DNA of 64,000 bases. Source: Flavobacteriaceae bacterium (lineage in GTDB: Bacteria; Bacteroidota; Bacteroidia; Flavobacteriales; Flavobacteriaceae). Positions 2,380 through 8,566 of this stretch are shown one piece after another. The translations under genes and the position numbers were made by a program. The notes beneath the pieces were generated by a model. It had not been told where the DNA came from, ran no database searches, and worked only from the letters and a program-made list of their open reading frames with translations. The stretch spans positions 1-64,000 of the forward strand of contig JABXHX010000013.1 in the NCBI GenBank assembly GCA_013373385.1. The letters run 5' to 3'. How positions within the stretch are numbered: position 1 is the first letter of the stretch; every line of letters starts with the position of its first letter.

Positions 2380-3669
2380 TCAAGGCAAATTCAAGTGCGT
2401 TTTCAATTCATCATAAGAACTTATTTGCTTCGCCACTTTTTCTTTATGTAGTATAGCTTGAATTTGCTGAGGAATGTCAATAGTTACATTCAAAGTTTCT
2501 CCTACCACGTCTAAAAACTTTACCGGGTGTGCTGTTTCTAAGAATACACACAAAGTATTTGGATTGTTTTTTAAATATTCTTGAGCACCAAGGTACCCAA
2601 CAGCTCCATGTGGATCAGCTATATAACCTGAGCTTTCTTTGATTTCTTTCATAGCATCTTTGGTTTCGTCATCTGAAAAGGCATACGAAGAAAACTGCTC
2701 TTTTAATTTGTTGACGTCATTATCAAACAATTCTTGAATACGAATAAAATTACTTGGGTTTCCAACATCCATCGCATTAGAAATGGTTGCTTTAGATGGC
2801 TTCGGATAGTACAGTCCGTTTTTTAAATAATTTGGAACGGTATCATTCACATTTGTAGATGCTACAAAATGCTTTACTGGTAAACCAAGTTTTTGAGCCA
2901 TAATTCCTGCACAAATATTCCCAAAATTTCCACTAGGTACAGAAAACACTAAGTCTTTATGTTTATTTTTCAATTGCTTATACGCAAAGAAGAAATAAAA
3001 CATTTGCGGTAACCAACGCGCCACATTGATAGAATTTGCAGATGTTAATGTTCTAGAAATTTCATTGTCTAAAAAAGCGGTTTTTACCATTTCTTGACAA
3101 TCGTCAAAAACACCCTCAACCTCTAATGCTGTAATATTCTGACCTAATGTTGTGAGTTGTTTTTCTTGAATATCGCTTACTTTTCCACTTGGGTATAAGA
3201 TGACTACATCTACACCTTTAACACCTAAGAATCCGTTTGCTACAGCACCACCTGTATCTCCAGATGTAGCAACCAAAACTGTAACTTGATTGTCATTATC
3301 CTTATTGAATTCTCCTAGACAACGTGCCATAAATCGAGCGCCGACATCTTTAAAAGCCATGGTTGGTCCATGAAACAATTCTAATGAACTGATATTCTCA
3401 TTGATTGGAACTACTGGAAAATCAAAATCAATGGTTTCTTTAATGATTTGTTTTAATCTTTCAGTTGGAATATCATCCCCAACAAATTGTTGAATCACTT
3501 CATACGCGATTTCTTCATTTGAGAAATACTCAATATGATTGAAAAAGTATTCACTTAATGGTATAATATTTTCTGGAAAATACAAACCTCTATCTGGCGC
3601 AATTCCGTTTACCACAACATCTTTAAAAGATACTTTTGGTGATTTATGATGTAAACTATAGTAGTTCAT
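2380..3669 (-). CDS. thrC: Threonine synthase
   Basis: PLP enzyme motifs (LELFHGPTMAFKDVGARFMARCL, VATSGDTGGAVANGF); adjacent to thrB and thrA. Confidence 0.95.
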   Translation of the reverse strand: MNYYSLHHKSPKVSFKDVVVNGIAPDRGLYFPENIIPLSEYFFNHIEYFSNEEIAYEVIQQFVGDDIPTERLKQIIKETIDFDFPVVPINENISSLELFHGPTMAFKDVGARFMARCLGEFNKDNDNQVTVLVATSGDTGGAVANGFLGVKGVDVVILYPSGKVSDIQEKQLTTLGQNITALEVEGVFDDCQEMVKTAFLDNEISRTLTSANSINVARWLPQMFYFFFAYKQLKNKHKDLVFSVPSGNFGNICAGIMAQKLGLPVKHFVASTNVNDTVPNYLKNGLYYPKPSKATISNAMDVGNPSNFIRIQELFDNDVNKLKEQFSSYAFSDDETKDAMKEIKESSGYIADPHGAVGYLGAQEYLKNNPNTLCVFLETAHPVKFLDVVGETLNVTIDIPQQIQAILHKEKVAKQISSYDELKTHLNLP

Positions 3670-3705: not shown

Positions 3706-4626
3706 TTAGAGTGTTTTTATTCCGTTTGCATTAACTTTAGATACGTGAATATCAAAATCAATTTGTAAGTTTTTATATGTTTTAGCCATTGCTAGTCCTA
3801 CCTTTTCTGCGGTTAATTTTCCTTTGCTCAATGCAAATATTGATGGTCCAGATCCAGAAATACCACCACCTAAAGCTCCTGTTTTTTTTGCTGCTGCTAT
3901 AACATTGTCGAATTCTGGAATGAGTATGGAACGTGATGGCTCTACAATTTCATCGTGTAATGAGCGTCCAATTAAATTATAATCTTCTGTATATAACCCA
4001 CTGATGAGCCCACCAAGATTTCCTAATTGTACTACCGTTTCTTTTAAGGTAACTTTTTTCTTTAATACCGCTCTAGCATCGGCAGTTTTAACTTCAATTT
4101 GCGGATGGATGACCGTTGCAAACAATTCTTTTGGGTTATTAATTTTAATGATATCCAATGGGTTGTAACTTCTAATTAGAGTAAATCCACCTAAAAGGGC
4201 AGGGGCTACATTATCTGCATGTGCAGTACCACTCGCTAATTTTTCTCCTTCCATGGCAAACGGAATCAATTCTTGCAAAGAAAAAGGCTCGTCTAATAAT
4301 TTGTTTACGCCAAAAACTGCTCCAGCTGCACTAGCAGCAGAACTTCCAATACCACTACCAGGTTTGATGTTTTTATAGATTTCTATTTCAAAACCATATG
4401 GTGTATCCACTTTTTCTAACAAAGCCAAAACAGCAACTCCAGCAACATTTTGTTCTATTTCTAATGGTAAGTTTTGCCCAACAATTTTGGTGATTCGTAC
4501 ACCTTTTTTATTGGTTTTTCTTATAATCATTTCATCTCCGATAGTATCTAAACAGAGTCCAAGTACATCAAATCCGCAAGAAACATTAGCGATGGTTGCA
4601 GGTGTAAATAGTTTAATTTTTTCCAT
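3706..4626 (-). CDS. thrB: Homoserine kinase
   Basis: GHMP kinase motif PGSGIGSSAASAAGAVFGVN; operon context. Confidence 0.95.
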   Translation of the reverse strand: MEKIKLFTPATIANVSCGFDVLGLCLDTIGDEMIIRKTNKKGVRITKIVGQNLPLEIEQNVAGVAVLALLEKVDTPYGFEIEIYKNIKPGSGIGSSAASAAGAVFGVNKLLDEPFSLQELIPFAMEGEKLASGTAHADNVAPALLGGFTLIRSYNPLDIIKINNPKELFATVIHPQIEVKTADARAVLKKKVTLKETVVQLGNLGGLISGLYTEDYNLIGRSLHDEIVEPSRSILIPEFDNVIAAAKKTGALGGGISGSGPSIFALSKGKLTAEKVGLAMAKTYKNLQIDFDIHVSKVNANGIKTL

Positions 4627-4628
4627 AA

Positions 4629-7070
4629 TTATACATTTCCAATTCTAATTACATCTGCAAAAATTCCAGATGCTGTTACATCAGCTCCAGCTCCAGCTCC
4701 TTTTACTTGTAAAGATTGTACTGGGTATCTATCAGTAAAAAACAACACAATATTATCACTACCTTCTAGATTATAAAAAGGATGGTCTGACGGAATATGC
4801 TGTAATCCAACTTTTGCTTTTCCATCTGCAAATTCAGCTACATATTTTAACTTGCAATTCTTGTCAGCAGCTTTTTTATAGATGTTTTGAAAGTGTTGTT
4901 CAAACTCTGTTAAGCTTGCATAAAAATCATCATTGTTAGAAGTGTTTAAACTTTTTTCAGGTAAAAACGAATCATTATCAATATCAGATAATTCCAATTC
5001 AAATCCACTTTCTCTTGCTAAAATTAAAATCTTTCTAGCCACATCAATACCGCTTAAATCTATCTTAGGATCTGGCTCTGTATACCCTTCATTTTGTGCT
5101 GCTTGAACCACATCATGAAAAGATGTACTCTCATTAAAATTATTGAATACATAATTTAAACTACCAGATAACACTGCTTGAATTTTCTGAACTCTGTCTC
5201 CAGAAGTAATTAAATTTTTTAAGGTATCAATAATAGGTAAACCTGCACCAACATTGGTTTCGAATAGAAATGGAGCGTTGTATTTTCTTGAAACTCTTTT
5301 TAGTGTTTTATAGTTTTCTAAACTAGAAGCGCAAGCAATTTTATTACACGTAACTATACCAATATTTTTTCTTAAATATTGTTCATACATCATAGAAACT
5401 TGTTCATTAGCGGTATTGTCAACAAAAACGCTATTCCTTAAATTTAATGAAATTGCTTTATTAAAAAAGGCATCCAACGAAGTAGGTTCACCGTTCAATA
5501 ATGATTTTTTCCAATTTGATAAATCGACACAACTTTCATTAAAAAACATTTTTCTAGAGTTAGATATTCCTATAACTCTCATATTTAATTTTAAATGCTT
5601 TCTTAAATATTCTTGTTGTTGTTTTACTTGACTTAAAAAACGTTCTCCTACATTTCCTACACCAGTAACAAACAAATTCAGTTGCTTTAATTTTTCTTCA
5701 AAAAACTGTTCATGCAAGGTATTTAATGCTTTTTTAGCATCCCATTTATGTATAACAGCAGAAATATTTTTTTCTGAAGCTCCTTGAGCAATAGCTCTAA
5801 TATTTACATTGTTTTTACCTAAAGCACTAAACATTTTACCACTTAATCCTTGATGATTTTTCATATTATCTCCAACCAAGGCTAAAATTGCCAAATCAGA
5901 TTCTACCAAAACAGCATTTACTTTATGTTGGTTGATTTCTACCTCGAAAGTTTCGTTGATGCTTTGTTCAGCAATTGCTACATCATCAGTATAAATTCCG
6001 ATACAAATAGAATGTTCTGAAGAAGCTTGTGTAATTAAAACAACATTGATGTTTTTTAGCGATAAGGTTTCAAACAAACGTTTTGAAAACCCAGGTATTC
6101 CTACCATTCCACTTCCTTCAAGTGTTAATAAAGCAATATTTTCTATGAATGTAATTCCTTTTACAGGTTTATTTTCTTCTGTTTTTTGTGTGATTAATGT
6201 TCCTACATCAGTAGGAGAAAAGGTGTTTTTAATTACAATAGGAATTTCCTTTTCTAAGACAGGTTGTATGGTTGGTGGATAAATTACTTTAGCTCCAAAA
6301 TGTGACAATTCCATTGCTTCTTGATAAGAAATATGTGGAATTGGAAATGCTTGCTTTACAATATTAGGATTTGCAGTAAACATTCCGCTTACATCTGTCC
6401 AAATTTGCAATTCATCAACTTGTAAAGCAGCTGCATAAATGGCAGCAGAATAATCAGAACCACCACGACCTAAAGTAGTAGTTTTACCCTCTTTAGTAGC
6501 AGCAATAAACCCTGGTAGAATTGTAATTTGCTCTTTAGAATTAGAAAAATACTCTTGCGCATTTTTGTTAGTCAATTCAAAGTTTACAGTCGCACTTTGA
6601 TAACTGCCATTGGCAATAATTAATTCTCTACTGTCTTTGTAGTTAACAGATAAACCTATTTCTTTAGCTGCTTTAGCAATAATATATGAAGATAATAACT
6701 CTCCAAAGCCAGCAATTGTAGCTAAGGTTTTTGGTGTTAATTCTTGTAATAAATTACAGCCTTCAAATAAGGTTTCTAAATGATTGAATATTCTTTTTAC
6801 ATAACTAATAACTTCACTTTGTTGTGTAACAGGAATTAATTTTTTAATTACGGTTAAATGATACGATTCTGTTTCTTGTAATAGTATATGGTATTCAAGA
6901 TTCTGAACTGCTGCATTTGCAATTTTTAACAGATTGTCTGTTGTTTTTCCAAAAGCTGAAACTACAACTACTAATTTATCTTTTTTTGCTGTTTGGTTGA
7001 TTATTGCCAAAACTTTTTCAATGGTGCTACTGTTTGCTACTGATGAACCACCAAATTTTAAAACTTTCAT
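4629..7070 (-). CDS. thrA: Bifunctional aspartate kinase/homoserine dehydrogenase I
   Basis: N-terminal MKVLKFGGSSVANSSTIEKV, GRGGSDYSAAIYAAAL, ACT regions, C-terminal homoserine dehydrogenase (FVTGVGNVGERFL, VLSGSLNYVFN). Confidence 0.96.
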   Translation of the reverse strand: MKVLKFGGSSVANSSTIEKVLAIINQTAKKDKLVVVVSAFGKTTDNLLKIANAAVQNLEYHILLQETESYHLTVIKKLIPVTQQSEVISYVKRIFNHLETLFEGCNLLQELTPKTLATIAGFGELLSSYIIAKAAKEIGLSVNYKDSRELIIANGSYQSATVNFELTNKNAQEYFSNSKEQITILPGFIAATKEGKTTTLGRGGSDYSAAIYAAALQVDELQIWTDVSGMFTANPNIVKQAFPIPHISYQEAMELSHFGAKVIYPPTIQPVLEKEIPIVIKNTFSPTDVGTLITQKTEENKPVKGITFIENIALLTLEGSGMVGIPGFSKRLFETLSLKNINVVLITQASSEHSICIGIYTDDVAIAEQSINETFEVEINQHKVNAVLVESDLAILALVGDNMKNHQGLSGKMFSALGKNNVNIRAIAQGASEKNISAVIHKWDAKKALNTLHEQFFEEKLKQLNLFVTGVGNVGERFLSQVKQQQEYLRKHLKLNMRVIGISNSRKMFFNESCVDLSNWKKSLLNGEPTSLDAFFNKAISLNLRNSVFVDNTANEQVSMMYEQYLRKNIGIVTCNKIACASSLENYKTLKRVSRKYNAPFLFETNVGAGLPIIDTLKNLITSGDRVQKIQAVLSGSLNYVFNNFNESTSFHDVVQAAQNEGYTEPDPKIDLSGIDVARKILILARESGFELELSDIDNDSFLPEKSLNTSNNDDFYASLTEFEQHFQNIYKKAADKNCKLKYVAEFADGKAKVGLQHIPSDHPFYNLEGSDNIVLFFTDRYPVQSLQVKGAGAGADVTASGIFADVIRIGNV

Positions 7071-7163
7071 GAATAATTTTTCTAAAAATACTTTTGAGAT
7101 TTAAATGCTATTTATCTCGTTTTGTTCTTACAAAACAATAAATATGACCTGATGATTATATGT

Positions 7164-7188
7164 AAAAAAAGATACCCCTAAAGGGTAA
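7164..7188 (-). terminator. Rho-independent attenuator-type terminator upstream of thrA
   Basis: Minus strand TTACCC-TTTA-GGGGTATCTTTTTTT: short GC stem plus T7 tract, overlapping the leader ORF stop codon. Confidence 0.7.
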
Positions 7189-7276
7189 TAGTAATAATGG
7201 TAAGAATAATAAGCATAGCGAAAGCCTTTACAGAAGTAGAGCTAGTAGAAATTGCTATGGCTTTAGAATTATTCAT
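7178..7276 (-). CDS. thrL: Threonine/isoleucine-rich operon leader peptide (MNNSKAIAISTSSTSVKAFAMLIILTIITITL)
   Basis: Translated by hand: 32 codons plus TAG, 5 Thr and 7 Ile, dense LIILTIITITL tail immediately before the terminator. Not in the ORF track because of length. Confidence 0.85.
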   Translation of the reverse strand: MNNSKAIAISTSSTSVKAFAMLIILTIITITL

Positions 7277-7280
7277 GCTA

Positions 7281-7310
7281 CAAATGTATAGCATATTTTA
7301 AAACGACAAA
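7281..7310 (-). promoter_or_regulatory. Bacteroidota sigma-ABfr-type promoter for thr leader/operon
   Basis: Minus strand TTTG, 18 nt, TACATTTG (matches TTTG...TAnnTTTG). Confidence 0.65.
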
Positions 7311-7320
7311 ATTTTTATCG
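7304..7320 (-). terminator. Possible lysA terminator hairpin (CGATAAAAATTTTGTCG)
   Basis: Near-perfect inverted repeat followed by TTTT, downstream of the lysA stop; overlaps the thr promoter -33 element. Confidence 0.4.
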
Positions 7321-7357
7321 CTTTTTTTAGGATATCTTTTTTTACAGAGGTAAGCCT

Positions 7358-8566
7358 TTATGATATATCAATTGTTACTTGATTTTTTAAGATATCTTGA
7401 AACGTTTCTCGTTCTCTAATCAAATAATCTTGCCCATTATAGATCATTACTTCAGCTGGTTTATACCTAGAGTTATAATTAGAAGCCATAGAAAAACAAT
7501 AGGCGCCGGCATTATGAAAACATAATACATCACCTTCTGTAATTTCATTAATTCTCCTATTAGTTCCAAAGGTATCCGTTTCACAGATATAACCCACAAC
7601 AGAGTAGTAGCGCTCTCTACCAGTTAGGTTTGAAATGTTTGTTATATGATGATACGCATCGTACATCATTGGTCTAACTAAGTGATTAAAACCACTATCA
7701 ACACCTGCAAAAACAGTAGATGTTGTTTGTTTGATGACATTTACTTTAGCTAAAAAGTATCCAGATTCGCTGACTAAAAATTTTCCAGGCTCAAACATTA
7801 ATGTTAAATCTTTACCGTAATCTTTACAAAACTGATTAAATCGTTTAGATAATTGCTTTCCTAATTGTTCTATATCGGTAGAAATGTCTCCTTCTTTATA
7901 AGGGACTTTAAATCCGCTACCAAAATCTATAAAATCTAAATTTTCAAATTGAGTAGCTACATCAAACAAAATTTCGCTAGCTCTTATAAACGTATCAATA
8001 TCTAAAATATCTGAGCCCGTGTGCATGTGAATACCATTGATATGCATTCCTGTATTTTCTACTACACGTTTGATATGTGGTACTTGATAGATTGATATTC
8101 CAAATTTAGAATCGATATGACCCACAGAAATTTTACTGTTACCTCCAGCCATTACATGAGGATTAATACGAACACAAACTGGTATTTCTGGATGCTTTTG
8201 TCCAAATAATTCAAGTATTGATAAGTTATCAATATTAATTTGAACGCCTAATTTAGCAACTTCTTCAATCTCTTCTAAAGATACTCCATTTGGTGTAAAA
8301 ATAATGTTTTCTGGAGCAACTCCAGCCGCTAAGCCTAATTGAACTTCTTGGAAAGAAACAGTGTCTAAACCTGATTCAAACTGTTTAAATAGCTTTAGAA
8401 TATTAATATTAGACAATGCTTTTACAGCATAGTTTATCTTTACACTTTTTACTTTAGAAAAAGCATTAATAATTCGATTGTATTGAGAACTGATTTTTTC
8501 AGTATCGTATACATATAAAGGGCTACCATATTTGTTTGCTAATTCTACTAAAGTCTTGCTGTCCAT
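7358..8566 (-). CDS. lysA: Diaminopimelate decarboxylase
   Basis: PLP decarboxylase motifs (YGSPLYVYDTEKI, VKINYAVKALSN, HMHTGSDI, NAGAYCFSMASNYN). Confidence 0.93.
   Translation of the reverse strand: MDSKTLVELANKYGSPLYVYDTEKISSQYNRIINAFSKVKSVKINYAVKALSNINILKLFKQFESGLDTVSFQEVQLGLAAGVAPENIIFTPNGVSLEEIEEVAKLGVQINIDNLSILELFGQKHPEIPVCVRINPHVMAGGNSKISVGHIDSKFGISIYQVPHIKRVVENTGMHINGIHMHTGSDILDIDTFIRASEILFDVATQFENLDFIDFGSGFKVPYKEGDISTDIEQLGKQLSKRFNQFCKDYGKDLTLMFEPGKFLVSESGYFLAKVNVIKQTTSTVFAGVDSGFNHLVRPMMYDAYHHITNISNLTGRERYYSVVGYICETDTFGTNRRINEITEGDVLCFHNAGAYCFSMASNYNSRYKPAEVMIYNGQDYLIRERETFQDILKNQVTIDIS

Follow-up and report, generated by a model that had tools for sequence, protein, structure and literature searches.

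The thrABC operon in the 64,000-nt stretch of Flavobacteriaceae DNA analyzed here (the window) is probably preceded by a ribosome-mediated attenuator that senses charged tRNA-Thr and tRNA-Ile, in which a ribosome stalled on a leader ORF directly occludes a hairpin, HP2 (probability about 0.68); the step so controlled would be termination of transcription. The parts of this reading differ in strength. Attenuation by a leader peptide is highly probable and occlusion of HP2 as the switch is likely, while the idea that HP2 and the box downstream of it act without Rho has slightly less than an even chance.

The operon has the order thrA-thrB-thrC, with lysA (7358-8566) located upstream, and the leader ORF sits between lysA and thrA on the minus strand (Table 1). 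From the stop codon of the leader to the thrA ATG at 7070 there are 107 nt. A second aspartokinase/homoserine dehydrogenase homologue was observed at G000:C58:1553-3958, with 37% identity and an open frame of 1139 aa.

Table 1. The thr operon and the elements of its leader, in positions of the window.
Feature	Position	Strand	Description
thrC	2380..3669	minus	threonine synthase
thrB	3706..4626	minus	homoserine kinase
thrA	4629..7070	minus	bifunctional aspartate kinase / homoserine dehydrogenase, heads the operon; NF006959, 1035 bits
HP3	7109..7144	minus	long hairpin, AU-rich, downstream of the box and before thrA; from folding and covariation
TNYATAT box	7155..7164	minus	UACAUAUAAU; unpaired, ~10 nt past HP2; from motif search
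T7 run	7164..7170	minus	after HP2, with TC between; not conserved in relatives
HP2	7173..7187	minus	UACCCU-UUA-GGGGUA; last Thr codon ACC at the 5' base, leader stop codon inside
P1	7204..7274	minus	two-part stem within the ORF: outer stem, one-sided bulge, inner hairpin; from folds and covariation
Leader ORF	7276..7178	minus	32 codons, MNNSKAIAISTSSTSVKAFAMLIILTIITITL*; Thr/Ile-rich towards the end; conserved in frame
Predicted sigma-A promoter	7281..7310	minus	TTTG at 7310-7307; -7 box TACATTTG at 7288-7281, with 4 nt separating the box from the leader ATG

A preliminary description of this DNA had proposed a Thr/Ile leader ORF of 32 codons upstream of thrA, and this ORF was confirmed, with its ATG at 7276 and its TAG stop at 7180-7178. 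The program-made ORF list gave 38 aa from an ATG at 7294, which falls within the promoter. The Thr/Ile richness of the ORF is not due to chance, because it was the only one among 984 small ORFs in the window with at least eight Thr or Ile residues in its last 12, and no small ORF of this kind was present in 20 shuffled windows.

To see how far the element extends among relatives, thrA upstream regions were drawn from the genus of the window, its family, its phylum and a named genome collection. The 217 regions make up two overlapping samples, and some genomes are in both. Leader and hairpin were found in 177 of them, in support of attenuation. With a strict pattern, a Thr/Ile leader ending in an HP2-type hairpin was present in 115 of the 137 genus and family regions and in 62 of the 80 regions of the named sample. 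The closest named relatives of the window were Polaribacter and Tenacibaculum, which places it in this group of the Flavobacteriaceae. Outside the family, the same layout occurred in Chitinophaga (L256) and in a family belonging to a different class of the phylum, with ThrA identities of 51-53% (L156-L158, L160, L162 and L164). Some relatives possessed thrA without an HP2-type leader, and these were counted against the attenuator reading. At L242, L249, L257, L261, L269 and L166-L169, thrA came directly after what looks like the end of a different coding sequence, which by eye resembled threonine dehydratase, and no leader was present.

The reading frame of the leader is tied to the hairpin. 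Among 52 distinct leaders of the Polaribacter/Tenacibaculum clade with a promoter-defined start, the first ATG or GTG after the -7 box was open and in frame with the ACC codon of the hairpin in every case (52/52). Gaps within the ORF part were all multiples of three (88/88, two alignments), and those downstream mostly were not. In the 177 leaders, Thr and Ile codons together accounted for 24% at codon -15 before the hairpin, 56% at -6, 70% at -4 and 90% at -1. The frame was defined here by the ACC codon of the hairpin base, which makes position 0 100% Thr by construction. The frame, gap and codon-gradient tests indicate that this is in all likelihood a translated leader ORF with control codons for the product of the pathway. 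The control codons run up to the hairpin base, which supports the earlier proposal of a thr-operon leader peptide.

Conservation of an ORF upstream of thrA would also be expected if it encoded a functional small protein, its composition being incidental. This explanation is extremely unlikely: the peptide sequence was not conserved except for the late Thr/Ile residues, it had no match in Pfam or NCBIfam, and its frame follows the hairpin.

Transcription is predicted to start at or next to position 7276, giving a leaderless leader mRNA in the window and its clade. The prediction was made because the -7 box, TAnnTTTG, and the start codon were separated by 4 nt in 38 and by 5 nt in 17 clade members, which are all 55 with the box, and this spacing matches the published distance from the box to the transcription start site. 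In F. johnsoniae, mapped start sites lie 4-5 nt past the -7 box (PMC6847099), and a survey of F. psychrophilum places the box at -12 to -5 and gives the leaderless arrangement for only 5.5% of mRNAs (PMC9723704). In most other Flavobacteriaceae of our comparison, the spacing from box to start codon was about 10-23 nt, which corresponds to a very short 5' UTR.

P1, HP2, the unpaired TNYATAT box and HP3 together make the leader a single structured RNA that is conserved, and an AU-rich stretch joins HP3 to thrA. Automatic consensus folding of MAFFT alignments missed much of P1 through misalignment of the hairpins; the structures were taken from single folds and then tested by pair counting. In two alignments, 91.5% and 80.7% of the cells of P1, HP2 and HP3 were paired, and the covariation score was reached by none of 500 shuffles in either. 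In the second alignment, covariation was 0.236 compared with at most 0.106 for slid controls. P1 and HP3 covaried in both alignments. Across 54 leaders, the ORF was more stably folded than its shuffled versions, whether dinucleotides or codons were shuffled (mean z of -2.1 and -2.0), and HP3 had a mean z of -2.5, while the signals were weaker in the clade labelled 'TDI' (mean z of -0.65, -0.73 and -0.48). An internal hairpin formed by AAGC(C)AUAGC and GCUAUGCUU, previously mentioned as a possibility, turned out to be a real part of P1. A candidate direct repeat of ACATATCA, with one copy in the linker and one in the bulge of P1, was discarded, its identity being no higher than in shuffled or cross-genome controls.

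HP2 has the general form ACCC(C)-UUU-GGGGU, and the last Thr codon forms part of its base; this core was near-invariant in the 177 leaders. The TNYATAT box begins about 10-12 nt after HP2 in the window and in relatives. Its mean motif score was 6.9 vs 3.0 in shuffles (179 distinct sequences), and a search for a complementary partner of the box found none. A covariance model of the leader gave at most one match per genome. When compared with thrA coordinates, matches lay directly upstream of thrA in 13 of 15 genus genomes; all 13 within-genus matches were upstream of thrA, and a 14th match was in another family. The leader RNA matched no Rfam family, and a search of a plasmid collection with the leader gave no match.

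The position of the control codons relative to HP2 points to occlusion. As described before, the leader stop codon lies within the hairpin, in its loop and 3' part (TACCCT-TTA-GGGGTA), and a run of seven T follows. Among the leaders, the stop codon was placed anywhere from 5 to 26 nt past the hairpin start, a shift of up to 21 nt, and the register of the Thr codon was fixed. In one outgroup family (f8; L170, L172, L175 and L177) the arms of HP2 were reversed, for example ACGGG-GUAA-CCCGU, and the Thr codon was still at the base, with the stop codon in the loop where it was read. The preliminary description had suggested direct occlusion rather than a 2:3 antiterminator, and we also favor it, because the control codons extend as far as the hairpin, the register of Thr does not vary, the family with reversed arms keeps the Thr codon, and HP2 has no conserved alternative partner. 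A ribosome that stalls at this point has to cover the 5' arm.

The alternative is a classical three-segment attenuator, in which ribosome stalling would release part of the leader to pair, as antiterminator, with the 5' arm of HP2. In the window alone, a 6-bp match of UAAAGG with CCUUUA could serve this purpose, as had been suggested earlier. The match does exist, but it is species-specific, since UAAAGG was found in only one of 54 clade leaders. The ORFs were as complementary to HP2 as their codon-shuffled counterparts (4.11 vs 4.19), leader pairing to the region after HP2 showed no own-genome excess, and no conserved pairing of the leader with an HP2 arm or the post-HP2 region was found. The control codons are, moreover, at HP2 and not in a separate upstream segment. 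Although other thr leaders of Bacteroidota (L171 and L184) look classical and weakly match the Rfam model Thr_leader, we consider a classical attenuator very unlikely for this element. A long-range pairing of CGGAC with GTCCG, from leader to downstream region, was suspected by eye in the 'TDI' clade and was rejected for lack of an own-genome excess.

The leaders that look classical belong to family f3 and L180 (family f4), with apparent textbook attenuators and strong U-tract terminators; because of these leaders, the phylum appears to have at least two designs of thr attenuator. A GGAGGAA-type leader segment complementary to the U-tract terminator was observed in L171, L176, L182 and L184 (family f3) and in L180. 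In Ulvibacter (L266), a different thr leader (MQNNFTTSTNTTVPI) was followed by a strong U-tract terminator, apparently as a replacement of the HP2 type.

HP2 had been described as a terminator, but an ordinary intrinsic terminator was not supported. HP2 is conserved, and in the window its d'Aubenton-Carafa score was D = 0.1, borderline and just at the threshold; the terminator-like site of the leader was the sole one in 6900-7700, where 0.2 were expected. In most relatives HP2 failed the terminator scoring. It was above the threshold in 9% of the clade of the window, in 0/39 and 0/22 members of two other large clades (0/61 together) and in 6-9% elsewhere, whereas the terminator of the trp attenuator in the same genome reached D = 24. 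A run of seven T after HP2 was present in two of 54 clade members, and such a tail is nearly unique to this species. What is conserved is the hairpin and the box, and the terminator is a local feature. U-richness after the hairpin was 5.0 of 8 in the clade of the window vs 2.3-3.9 in others, suggesting that this clade may be drifting towards an ordinary terminator.

The same failure of terminator scoring would be expected if Rho were responsible for termination. The sensor would be identical, but HP2 and the TNYATAT box would form a polymerase pause, and Rho would terminate in the ~60-110 nt untranslated stretch before thrA after the leader ribosome leaves; the stalled ribosome would prevent the pause. 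A distance of about 10-12 nt from hairpin to box is typical of hairpin-stabilized pauses, and the spacing found here is taken in favor of this explanation. Rho is active in Bacteroidota according to a published report (PMC13269538), and a Rho-dependent reading was offered for the terminator-less cys leaders of mycobacteria (PMC1262725). Rho, however, needs neither a conserved 8-base box nor a covarying HP3, and we regard Rho-dependent termination as rather unlikely. A more specific form of the occlusion attenuator can be put forward tentatively: HP2 and TNYATAT may constitute a U-tract-free, hairpin-dependent stop or pause for the Bacteroidota polymerase, kept upstream of thrA across classes and controlled by antiterminator-free ribosome occlusion.

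Conservation of HP3 near thrA, together with the lack of a strong terminator family-wide, could also mean that the output is thrA translation or RNA stability, with leader translation remodeling HP2-HP3 and altering initiation or decay instead of termination. This is unlikely, because the phylum has no Shine-Dalgarno sites to sequester (PMC6847099), the control codons are overlapped by HP2 and not by HP3, and, after segment overlap was discounted, the thrA start showed no conserved pairing partner. Two candidate pairings with the thrA start were rejected. One with the start of the leader, 11 bp in the window, gave a weak clade signal (z of -2.7) that was inconsistent by eye, and a signal between HP3 and the thrA start in the 'TDI' clade was judged an artefact of overlapping segments.

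Under the occlusion attenuator, events would proceed as follows. Transcription would begin on the leader start codon or beside it, and a ribosome could therefore load once the 5' end emerges. P1 would fold behind RNA polymerase and probably slow it until the ribosome arrives. When Thr and Ile are plentiful, the ribosome would cross the late Thr/Ile codons and depart at the stop codon; HP2 would then fold, and transcription would halt at or just past HP2 and the TNYATAT box, possibly with Rho as a helper of termination or pausing near the box. Under a shortage of Thr or Ile, the ribosome would stall within HP2 or on the codons immediately ahead of it, and its footprint would hold the HP2 5' arm open, allowing transcription to continue into thrABC. 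It counts against this reading that HP2 has no U-tract in most relatives, and that HP2 would likewise be masked by a ribosome waiting on the stop codon; therefore release must be fast or the polymerase must pause.

The element resembles the gamma-proteobacterial thrL leader (RF00506, Thr_leader) in having a short Thr/Ile leader ORF directly upstream of thrA of thrABC and an RNA hairpin after the control codons. Unlike thrL, it has neither an antiterminator nor a conserved U-tract terminator, its control codons abut the hairpin, and it possesses a predicted leaderless start, the TNYATAT box and HP3. RF00506 had no match in the window or in the Flavobacteriaceae leaders scanned.

Mycobacterial cys leaders are leaderless polycysteine attenuators, and they resemble the thr leader described here in its predicted leaderless start. 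Their ORFs are also similar in that runs of control codons lie near the stop codon with no obvious intrinsic terminator (PMC1262725), but they have no conserved hairpins, whereas HP2, P1 and HP3 are conserved here. In actinobacterial ilvB leader ORFs (PMC1262725; ilvB-II motif, PMC10272879), control codons likewise overlap or abut a regulatory hairpin. Those hairpins, however, carry poly-U runs and belong to a different operon and phylum, and an antiterminator has been proposed for ilvB-II (PMC10272879).

Bacteroid-trp (RF01692), found in the same genome, is another leader-peptide attenuator of a Bacteroidota amino-acid operon with a very short 5' UTR, but it differs in its strong U-tract terminator and complementary leader segment. 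The thr leader did not match the Bacteroid-trp model, and the best RF01692 match of the genome was elsewhere, at a locus that has a Trp leader ORF. The trp leader at G000:C58:35011-35127 (L280; MMKQQNIWWWNSLS) scored 46.9 bits, just under the Rfam cut-off of 49. Of 19 genus genomes with a match, 13 scored below this cut-off, so the Rfam model under-calls this clade. The F. psychrophilum survey reports clues of leader-peptide attenuation upstream of amino-acid operons generally (PMC9723704); this is the same general idea in the same bacterial family, though neither a thr element nor a mechanism is named in its main text. We found no description of this thr element in the open-access literature.

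Leader-peptide attenuation has long been known, mostly in Proteobacteria, Firmicutes and Actinobacteria, where the leaders have Shine-Dalgarno sites and the terminators have U-tracts. What is new here is that one element combines a predicted leaderless start and probable occlusion with covarying P1 and HP3, and lacks both an antiterminator and a U-tract. The element shows how a phylum free of Shine-Dalgarno sites probably attenuates, using a leaderless leader ORF and a hairpin covered by the stalled ribosome. It offers a widespread test case for whether attenuation needs any antiterminator, and for stopping of the Bacteroidota polymerase at a U-tract-free hairpin. It is also a candidate new RNA family, and its leader gene is an overlooked one to annotate in many genomes.
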